Assembly: GCF_000182745.2 (NCBI RefSeq)
Contig: NC_016027.1
Coordinates: 1,479,501 to 1,543,500, forward strand
Source of the DNA: Komagataeibacter medellinensis NBRC 3288
GTDB lineage: Bacteria; Pseudomonadota; Alphaproteobacteria; Acetobacterales; Acetobacteraceae
Length of the DNA stretch: 64,000 bases
Direction: 5' to 3'
Part shown: positions 28,611-47,686 of the stretch, piece after piece
Layout of the letters: each line of letters opens with the position of its first letter
Position numbering within the stretch: position 1 is the stretch's first letter
Notes under the pieces: model-generated
Told to the model about the DNA's origin: nothing
What the model saw: only the letters and a program-made list of their open reading frames with translations
Database searches by the model: none
Translations under genes and position numbers: made by a program

Positions 28611-29414
28611 TTAATGGCGGCGACGATGTGCACGGGCGACATCCATAAGCAGCGGGGGAGCAAGGCGGCGCAGGATCACTTCAAGCCGCTGTGAAAGCGA
28701 TTGCCCGGCAGTGGTCAGGTACTGCGTCTGCCTGCTGCGCGCCCCCGCCCCGGTGCGGGGGGCGGTATAGAAATACGCGATCAACGCCCGCCGCACACGG
28801 CCGGACCGCACCACCTGCGGATGCCCGTGCCATGAGCGGGCCGACTGCTCCATCAGCACCGTGCGCGCAAAGGACGGACGGATTGCCACCGCCCGCCGCC
28901 GGGGCGTAGCGTGCCACAGTTCCAGGCCGCCGCCATCGTCGTGCTTCCAGTCCGTATTGAGGTAGGTAATCAGGACCAGGCGATTTTCCAGTTGGGTGAC
29001 AGGATGGTGGCTGAAATCAAGATGCACCTGAAAATGCCCCTGCCCCGCCACTTCATGCATGCCGCCACCATACAGATACGGATCAGGCACCAGCCCCGTT
29101 ATGCCGGTCAGGCGCGTAAGCAGGCGCAGGAACGGCGCCGCATGTACGATATTGAAAAACCGCTGCACGGTCGGCGGCAGGACGGTGGCCATGCTGGTGG
29201 AACGTTTGGTCTGCATCTGGTTACGGAAGTCATTCACGTCATTTAGTCTGGAGAGGTTAAATTCCCGCAACGCGCTTTCCAGCAGGTCTGCCGGAAACAG
29301 ATCATCCATAACCAGATACGGAAAGGGCCGTGCGGTTGCATAATGCTGCCCCAACCGGTCCAGTACTGGCGAATCCGGTCGCTCAAGTTCACGCAGCAGA
29401 GGAAGTTCAGTCAT
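28611..29414 (-). CDS. 2-oxoglutarate/Fe(II)-dependent oxygenase (prolyl-4-hydroxylase-like)
   Basis: A 267-residue soluble oxygenase. The double-stranded beta-helix facial triad is visible: HxD in FQVHLDFSHHP near residue 138, the distal His in RSWHGHPQVV near residue 198, and the 2OG-binding Arg in RRALIAYFYT about 13 residues later. Such enzymes hydroxylate peptide or small-molecule substrates. The C-terminal 50 residues are basic and outside the fold. The ATG at 29414 has AGGA seven bases upstream. No partner gene is adjacent. Confidence 0.85.
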   Translation of the reverse strand: MTELPLLRELERPDSPVLDRLGQHYATARPFPYLVMDDLFPADLLESALREFNLSRLNDVNDFRNQMQTKRSTSMATVLPPTVQRFFNIVHAAPFLRLLTRLTGITGLVPDPYLYGGGMHEVAGQGHFQVHLDFSHHPVTQLENRLVLITYLNTDWKHDDGGGLELWHATPRRRAVAIRPSFARTVLMEQSARSWHGHPQVVRSGRVRRALIAYFYTAPRTGAGARSRQTQYLTTAGQSLSQRLEVILRRLAPPLLMDVARAHRRRH

Positions 29415-29674
29415 GCAGGAATCCTGTAAAAACCTGAACATTTGAAATAATTATGTCTTTTTTTGAAATATTTTCATTAAATTCAATTAAAATATTATTA
29501 AAACAAAATATTTTAATTTAATTTTATAAACAACATAGTCCGTAATCCCTATTCAAGCACGCAAGGGACAACCCTGCATTGTCGCCGCATGGCTGGTGTA
29601 CGGGCACGACCCATCCCCCTGCCGCCCCAGATCGTGGCATATTGCCCCATCCTTCAACGAGGTAGACAGAACTC
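29415..29674. other. AT-rich divergent promoter region
   Basis: This region lies between the divergent oxygenase (minus) and small hypothetical (plus) genes. About 100 bases from 29445 are nearly all A and T. No gene or RNA is seen. It probably contains both promoters. Confidence 0.45.
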
Positions 29675-46818: not shown

Positions 46819-47544
46819 TCAGGCCGTCGTGGCCTGCGCCATCGCGTTGCCCTGATGCATGTGCACGGGGCTGACTTCATCACGCAGTACGTAGCCCTGC
46901 CCCCATACGGTCGTGATAAGATGCCCCGTGCCCGCGCTCTGCAGTTTCTTGCGCAGCTTGCAGATGAAGACATCAATGATCTTCATTTCCGGCTCGTCCA
47001 TGCCGCCATACAGGTGGTTGAGGAAGGCGTCTTTTGTCAGGACCATGCCCTTGCGCAGCAGCAGCAGTTCCAGGATCATGTATTCCTTGCCCGTCAGGTG
47101 CACCCCATGCCCGTGCACGCTGACCTCCCGGCTACCAAGGCATAGTTCCAGGTGGCCAGCACGCAGAGTCGGCTCACTGTACCCCTTCGAGCGGCGAATG
47201 ACCGCCTGCATCCGCGCGGTCAGTTCCATGGATTCATAGGGGCGGGTCACATAGTCATCCGCGCCAGTTGAAAACGCCTTTACCTTCGAGGTCGCTGCCT
47301 TTTCCTCCGACAGGATCATGACCGGGGTGGGGAGCCGTGCGGCACGGCTTATGCGGATCACTTCAAACCCATCCATATCGGGCAGATCCACGTTCATGAC
47401 TGCAAGGTCATAATTATAGGATTTTAACATCCCCAGGGCATCATGACCGGTGTCGACATGATCCACCGTAAATCCGGCTTTTTCCATATGCCGGGTGGTC
47501 TCTTCGACCTTTCTGGCACAGGGCTCAACTAGCAAAATCCGCAT
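46819..47544 (-). CDS. CtrA-like response regulator with degenerate receiver (D51N)
   Basis: A 241-residue OmpR-type DNA-binding protein that aligns without gaps to Caulobacter CtrA for the first 100 residues. The DNA-binding end is nearly the CtrA one: HLTGKEYMILELLLLRKG, NHLYGGMDEPEMKIIDVF and VWGQGYVLRDE. The receiver has lost key acidic and basic positions: E7-D8-D9 is EPC, the phosphoacceptor D51 is N51 and K101 is R101. It is therefore unlikely to be switched by phosphorylation. Whether it is the main CtrA or a paralogue cannot be told here. The start at 47544 is set by alignment to CtrA. Confidence 0.85.
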   Translation of the reverse strand: MRILLVEPCARKVEETTRHMEKAGFTVDHVDTGHDALGMLKSYNYDLAVMNVDLPDMDGFEVIRISRAARLPTPVMILSEEKAATSKVKAFSTGADDYVTRPYESMELTARMQAVIRRSKGYSEPTLRAGHLELCLGSREVSVHGHGVHLTGKEYMILELLLLRKGMVLTKDAFLNHLYGGMDEPEMKIIDVFICKLRKKLQSAGTGHLITTVWGQGYVLRDEVSPVHMHQGNAMAQATTA

Positions 47545-47671
47545 ATCGACCATCCAGTAGATATTTGTCCTGTATCTACCTATAGGTGTGAGTATTAATT
47601 TTAACAACCTAAAGTTGACAATATATTAGGAGCATTTAATACGTTTTATGAATTAAAAGATTTATATTTAA

Positions 47672-47686
47672 TTAATAAACAGTTAA
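47672..47686. promoter_or_regulatory. candidate CtrA box TTAA-N7-TTAA
   Basis: TTAA at 47672-47675 and TTAA at 47683-47686 have exactly seven bases between them, the Caulobacter CtrA consensus. The box lies 128 bases upstream of the CtrA-like start codon and touches the thiD stop codon. The region is AT-rich, so chance cannot be excluded. Confidence 0.35.

Follow-up and report, generated by a model that had tools for sequence, protein, structure and literature searches.

Judged from sequence, the key change in the regulator CtrA of acetic acid bacteria (AAB) is the loss of its phosphorelay together with its receiver chemistry, and it reaches beyond the D51N substitution of a single species. 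In alphaproteobacteria, the CckA–ChpT–CtrA pathway is the classic cell-cycle oscillator of the textbooks. The ctrA gene under study lies in a stretch of 64,000 nucleotides of Komagataeibacter medellinensis NBRC 3288 (the window; contig NC_016027.1, positions 1,479,501 to 1,543,500), and its product is a CtrA by descent that has probably turned into a kinase-independent pseudo-receiver regulator, controlled by its amount.

The window CtrA and its receiver

The ctrA frame is open and starts at position 47544 on the minus strand, a strand that the original prediction, made from the bare DNA, had left unnamed; its reading of the protein as CtrA-like, with Asn51, Pro8, Cys9 and Arg101, was borne out residue by residue, and the protein is a CtrA by descent (Table 1). 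The best NCBIfam model for the protein is that of CtrA, at 301 bits and thus under the model's 350-bit cut-off. Among the named loci compared, GlmM of the window species is closest to that of K. rhaeticus (97% identical).

Table 1 Features of the window ctrA gene (window coordinates) and of one interrupted copy elsewhere in the genus (coordinates within L366)
Feature	Position	Strand	Remarks
ctrA	46819..47544	-	241 aa; sole CtrA ortholog found in the genome
Receiver domain, residues 3-112, aspartate-less pseudo-receiver	47209..47538	-	Pfam PF00072, 68 bits; fold kept in predicted model
Codon 51, AAC, Asn replacing the phosphoacceptor Asp	47392..47394	-	Codon read
Codons 8-9, CCC TGT, Pro Cys replacing Asp Asp	47518..47523	-	Position 8 normally holds the direct metal ligand
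Codon 101, CGC, Arg replacing the conserved Lys	47242..47244	-	Codon read
Winged-helix DNA-binding domain, residues 146-220	46885..47109	-	Pfam PF00486 (Trans_reg_C), 72 bits; strong conservation
C-terminus, Thr-Ala and stop, instead of the Ala-Ala degradation tag	46819..46827	-	End of the ORF
TTAA-N7-TTAA CtrA-type box	47672..47686	.	142 bases 5' of the ctrA start; overlaps the thiD end
IS4/5-family transposase ORF in ctrA	L366 2942-3778	-	Remaining ctrA open downstream

Of the residues that serve phosphorylation, Glu7 and Ser79 are kept in the window protein, and Asp8, Asp51 and Lys101 are lost. The same alignment columns in 100 ChpT-bearing relatives hold Asp at positions 51 and 8 (99 proteins in each case, with one Glu), Asp or Glu at position 9, and Lys at position 101. 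By the CtrA-to-PhoB numbering, we take the acidic metal pair (DD1, DD2) to be Glu7 and Asp8, and the window CtrA has therefore retained the former and lost the latter, the direct metal ligand. The prediction had correctly placed Pro and Cys at positions 8 and 9, but the pair that binds the metal is E7/D8 and not D8/D9. The DD1, DD2, D, T and K residues of receivers and their roles are defined in the accessible part of PMC12632262.

In a predicted structural model (mean pLDDT 86.5; residues 224–241 disordered), Pro8–Cys9 lie just past strand 1 and Asn51 just past strand 3, with a pLDDT of about 96 at these places. The model puts the substituted residues where a normal receiver has them, in a receiver fold predicted to be intact. 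Another aspartate at the phosphorylation site would have told against the prediction; none aligns there, and Asp46 and Asp56 only flank it. With D51, D8 and K101 all lost, it is very improbable that the protein is phosphorylated in the usual manner, just as anticipated.

A second CtrA in the genome was considered and rejected. In the 99.98%-complete assembly, the next-best regulator is 34% identical to CtrA, and its receiver site is an ordinary one. One of the roles proposed for the window protein, that of competing with a normal CtrA, is unsupported because no such second copy was found.

Relay and receiver across Acetobacteraceae

A table of ChpT occurrence based on Pfam PF10090, which matched 184/298 family genomes, was superseded by one from a profile built from Acetobacteraceae ChpT, which matched 174/298 with the best 10 candidates per genome scored; both returned 0/7 Komagataeibacter genomes. 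Over 80 chosen genomes, ChpT profile scores were 157–208 bits in five known ChpT-bearing controls; the remaining 75 did not exceed 43.7 bits, with matches that lay in large kinase ORFs. For CckA, the Brucella model at E 1e-100 (best three candidates per genome scored) matched 171/298 family genomes, many of which matches may be paralogs, and 0/7 Komagataeibacter. An Acetobacteraceae CckA profile (best 17 candidates per genome scored) yielded 538–880 bits in four control genomes and no more than 336 bits in the remaining genomes with a match. By these homology searches, the CckA–ChpT phosphorelay is not found in the window genome or in the other AAB searched. Since a single CtrA was found and CckA and ChpT were not, the cell-cycle wiring has changed in this group, as the prediction had proposed for the case of a sole CtrA.

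Several further searches bear on the pathway. In the flanks of 80 named ctrA loci, inspected with a method verified on positive controls, no ChpT was seen. A search of 80 genomes for SciP (PF06627) gave nothing above the cut-off even in the ChpT-bearing controls and is therefore uninformative. One kinase of the window genome (L136) was rejected as CckA: it has a receiver–PAS–kinase–receiver architecture with two receiver stretches, adjoins ORFs that by eye resemble cheA and cheB, and scores 331 bits against the Brucella CckA model (cut-off 1000 bits) and 259 bits against the Acetobacteraceae profile (538–880 in controls). Among 23 receiver matches in the genome, only L327 (120 aa) is short enough for a stand-alone receiver; it was rejected as DivK or CpdR, its best model being of the PhyR type and its score against the CpdR model 22 bits (cut-off 180).

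CtrA itself was taken from 179/299 family genomes, 246/299 having matched at E 1e-50. Where ChpT is present by the Acetobacteraceae profile, Asp51 is found in 101/102 genomes; where it is absent, in 23/77, the others having Glu (44), Ala (3), His (2), Asn (2), Arg (2) or Ser (1). By tblastn positions, all five phosphorylation residues are canonical in 98/102 ChpT-bearing as compared to 8/77 ChpT-less genomes, and five of these eight have a completeness of at most 90%. A MAFFT alignment with four genes left out returned 100/101 and 9/74, respectively; the two counts differ because tblastn had misaligned three of the four exceptions with ChpT, and because one protein from a ChpT-less genome turned canonical. 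These genome counts are not independent events. On the tree of DNA-binding domains the ChpT label changes nine times, with two independent pairs on supported branches, so that a paired test of the ChpT–receiver link is powerless and significance out of reach; the independent events are few. In a tree of 118 CtrA proteins computed without the trait columns and including one misframed row (L300), Glu51 rows form large blocks and the deep order is poorly resolved.

Two side observations concern the edges of this distribution. One ChpT-bearing genome, an 88%-complete draft from genus g58 (G133; L079 / L216), has Glu51 in its CtrA and gave no CckA match at E 1e-60. Three CtrA-like proteins (L301 from G096, L303 from G023 and L304 from G224), from ChpT-less genomes of g96, g24 and g68, are strongly diverged (38–40% identical), carry Arg or Ser at position 51 and lack Lys101; they possibly represent a second, independent receiver decay.

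For closer comparison, 53 AAB genomes picked by hand were set against the 100 ChpT-bearing ones. Glu51 occurs in 43/53 AAB and Asp, Asn, His or Ala in the other ten; a permanent phosphomimetic charge is therefore not needed by all of them. Glu51 is also the residue of the named loci from Acetobacter, Gluconacetobacter and Novacetimonas. The Komagataeibacter loci examined all carry Pro8 and Arg101 but vary at position 51 between Glu, Asp and Asn; the codons used there are GAG, GAT, GAC and AAC, so that a single step separates Asn from Asp. Asn51 as such is rare and was seen in three of 208 distinct CtrA proteins, namely those of the window species, of K. rhaeticus (L025) and of a genome from another genus (G214). 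All three read N-V-D, with an aspartate two residues on, perhaps by chance or perhaps as a shifted acidic residue; Asp53 is also present in L053, G219, G001 and G276.

This aspartate raises the prospect of phosphorylation by another route, whereby another kinase or acetyl phosphate would modify Asp53 in the window species (D+2; window 47386-47388) or Asp51 in Asp-bearing Komagataeibacter. We hold this to be highly improbable: while Asp53 is shared by the three Asn51 proteins, Asp51 persists in some Komagataeibacter and the genome still encodes 15 histidine-kinase domains, every Komagataeibacter protein examined has Pro8 and Arg101, and none of them besides the Asn51 proteins has Asp53.

Constraint on the protein, its upstream box and its interruption

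Nineteen positions that are at least 95% fixed in ChpT-bearing proteins fell to 70% or less in the 53 AAB. Those of the phosphotransfer chemistry are among them: D8 and D51 are retained in 5/53 each, P55 (D+4) in 18/53, G80 (T+1) in 9/53, K101 in 30/53 and F103 (K+2) in 26/53. Five of the 19 positions lie outside the receiver (120, 172, 199, 216 and 221) and moved mostly to similar residues, with partial shifts of E172 to Asp, K199 to Arg and R216 to Gln in the DNA-binding half. For sites fixed in ChpT-bearing proteins, mean retention is 0.93 over the 50 sites of the DNA-binding domain and 0.77 over the 46 sites of the receiver. When proteins of like DNA-binding-domain identity are compared (0.85–0.90 bin), AAB receivers are more diverged than those of ChpT-bearing relatives (0.60 versus 0.75). 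The C-terminus has changed as well: Ala-Ala ends 76/100 ChpT-bearing versus 4/53 AAB proteins, and the last residue is Ala in 93/100 versus 17/53.

Residues K87, D96, D97, E107, R111 and R118, presumably the active-dimer face of the OmpR/PhoB type, are kept in 52–53 of the 53 AAB, and the window protein has all six. By residue identity, this dimer face is thus kept in the window CtrA and in AAB. Across 13 Komagataeibacter ctrA genes, dN/dS amounts to 0.10 in the receiver and 0.05 in the DNA-binding domain. A receiver that is under purifying selection and predicted to fold could point to a pseudo-receiver under a different signal, with DNA binding switched on and off by a small molecule or partner protein that occupies the degenerate pocket; the pocket-side positions 50, 80 and 103 are changed in AAB, and cases of this kind are reviewed in the accessible part of PMC12632262. 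Given that no ligand or partner candidate emerged from the searches, which were directed at the relay, and that fold stability and dimerisation alone could account for the selection, we regard such a signal as rather unlikely.

Upstream of ctrA lies the box listed in Table 1. The window contains two exact TTAA-N7-TTAA sites, as compared to 0.05 expected from shuffles, although the spot at -142 is AT-rich. Among 14 Komagataeibacter upstream regions, the ctrA box is exact with N7 in 12 and has one mismatch in two, and no exact match occurs at spacings of 4–6 or 8–10; conservation is 0.98 for the half-sites, 0.74 for the spacer, and 0.50 and 0.69 for the flanks. The box was present in 0/14 Novacetimonas and Gluconacetobacter upstream regions, 6/62 other non-D51 upstream regions and 6/154 D51 upstream regions. 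Genome-wide there is no excess of such boxes (59 sites at spacings 5–9 versus 134 for the reversed control), and spacings 5 to 9 account for 9, 8, 12, 13 and 8 of the 50 listed among these 59 sites, N7 thus for 12 (by-eye count). As the box is kept in Komagataeibacter but not in excess across the genome, its pattern makes binding by the present CtrA plausible at -142.

Other elements were noted alongside. A promoter scan 5' of ctrA returned nothing above threshold. Two short palindromes, ACCTATAGGT (47578-47587) and CAACCTAAAGTTG (47605-47617), separate the box from the ctrA start and by eye recur in Komagataeibacter upstream regions, the former also in Novacetimonas and Gluconacetobacter; they may serve a different regulator as promoter or operator. 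The second exact TTAA-N7-TTAA site (window 29487-29501) lies 46 bases 5' of a 276-aa ORF (28611..29441, minus strand), which is a candidate CtrA target. A perfect 16-base palindrome, TTAACGACGTCGTTAA, has at least six copies in the window genome (G000; C3:212107, 244276, 385730, 481345, 1878625 and 2065894) and may belong to a mobile element or to a site that organises the chromosome.

In one Komagataeibacter genome (G281; L366, G281:C1:2066500-2072500), a 278-aa IS4/5-family transposase ORF is located inside ctrA at codons 55–56. Frame breaks were found in K. rhaeticus LMG 22126, K. xylinus K2G30, G247 and G032, as well as in the ChpT-bearing G062, and some of these may be draft sequence errors; interrupted or frame-broken copies thus comprise three from Komagataeibacter and two from other AAB. 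At E 1e-36, 4/42 re-searched genomes returned no CtrA. Considering the interrupted copies and these four genomes, CtrA may be dispensable, or optional.

The same copies and absences, together with a receiver that, for a given divergence of the DNA-binding half, evolves faster than its counterpart in ChpT-bearing relatives, would also fit a regulator in decay, which lost its central role with the relay, became dispensable and is drifting towards loss. Against this reading, which we judge quite unlikely, speak the low dN/dS of intact copies, the near-invariant dimer face and the upstream box kept in Komagataeibacter; moreover, sequencing errors in drafts can produce frame breaks, and one of them affects a ChpT-bearing genome.

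A proposed route to a kinase-free CtrA and its known relatives

We favour the reading of the window protein as a kinase-independent CtrA controlled by amount. In the sequences behind it, the CckA–ChpT relay is not found in the AAB searched, and the CtrA receiver has lost D8, D51 (replaced in most by Glu) and, in part, K101. Unphosphorylated CtrA would dimerise and bind its boxes, and its output would be set by the amount made, through autoregulation and other promoter inputs, rather than by a kinase or by cell-cycle proteolysis. Counting against this reading are the ten AAB without Glu51, the interrupted or missing copies, the lack of a genome-wide excess of boxes, the small number of independent events and the shifted sites of the DNA-binding half. 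Relay loss with the D8 change first, then D51E and tag loss, is a plausible order because CckA and ChpT were not found in genus g57 and residue 8 is Gly or Ser there (5/5), but D51 (5/5) and mostly the Ala-Ala end (4/5) are kept; from its sequences, g57 looks like the first step of the change. A broader proposal holds that AAB lost CckA–ChpT and fixed bypass-class changes (D8, D51E and loss of Ala-Ala), such that CtrA is constitutive and non-oscillating, the cell cycle is independent of its phosphorylation and proteolysis, and CtrA is optional in some lineages; we consider the chances of this to be about even.

Like a canonical CtrA, the window protein joins a receiver to a Trans_reg_C domain in the same order, with an orthologous and highly conserved DNA-binding domain and the dimer-face residues, and as in other Komagataeibacter a TTAA-N7-TTAA box, to which it would bind, stands 5' of its own gene. 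It is unlike a canonical CtrA in that Asp51 is Asn, Asp8 is Pro next to a kept Glu7, Lys101 is Arg with Ser79 kept, the end is Thr-Ala instead of Ala-Ala, and neither CckA nor ChpT was found in its genome; a further difference within the genus is the interrupted gene of one genome.

The combination of D51E with a stabilised CtrA was reportedly lethal in Caulobacter, in Domian's work of 1997. According to the accessible part of PMC12421884, Caulobacter ctrA(D8G) permits growth without cckA, and a change of Ala-Ala to Asp-Asp stabilises the protein; in the accessible part of PMC6363796, D51E serves as a phosphomimetic in Rhodobacter capsulatus CtrA. By analogy, the D8 change, D51E and tag loss of AAB resemble laboratory alleles that free CtrA from CckA, mimic the phosphate and stabilise the protein. 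As far as these sources go, the natural changes fall in the same three places (D8 to Ser, Pro, Asn, Gly or Thr; D51 to Glu; Ala-Ala lost), yet in AAB they co-occur in a natural group without the relay, whereas the alleles were engineered into a relay-bearing cell. Komagataeibacter has gone further than the laboratory alleles, with Pro8, Arg101 and Glu, Asp or Asn at position 51.

Aspartate-less receiver (ALR) regulators, defined in the accessible part of PMC12632262 with ChxR, GlnR, HP1043 and Rem as named examples, lack at least one of the five key residues, D included. The window CtrA, without the phosphoacceptor D51 and without D8 and K101, belongs with them and, like them, is presumed active without phosphorylation; unlike the cases described there, a single-copy cell-cycle regulator here became an ALR group-wide, together with relay loss. 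For cluster D of the Rhodospirillales, the accessible part of Brilli et al. 2010 (PMC2877005) reports relay members, DivK and CpdR–RcdA as missing, chpT as not found and cckA as present, and its main text makes no mention of D51, aspartate or receiver. In contrast to that report on cckA, the present searches of AAB yielded no CckA ortholog. In titles and abstract starts, with subscription journals mostly outside the scope, no paper on CtrA receiver loss in acetic acid bacteria was found.

CtrA appears to be a kinase-free regulator across acetic acid bacteria, which would have shed both kinase relay and degradation tag while keeping the DNA-binding half, a stepwise dismantling of an essential phospho-switch. 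Their CtrA proteins would be natural counterparts of laboratory suppressor alleles, and the cellulose-making Komagataeibacter, along with Acetobacter and Gluconacetobacter, are systems for studying the role of a CtrA that lacks its switch. The findings also caution against carrying the Caulobacter model over to such industrial organisms.
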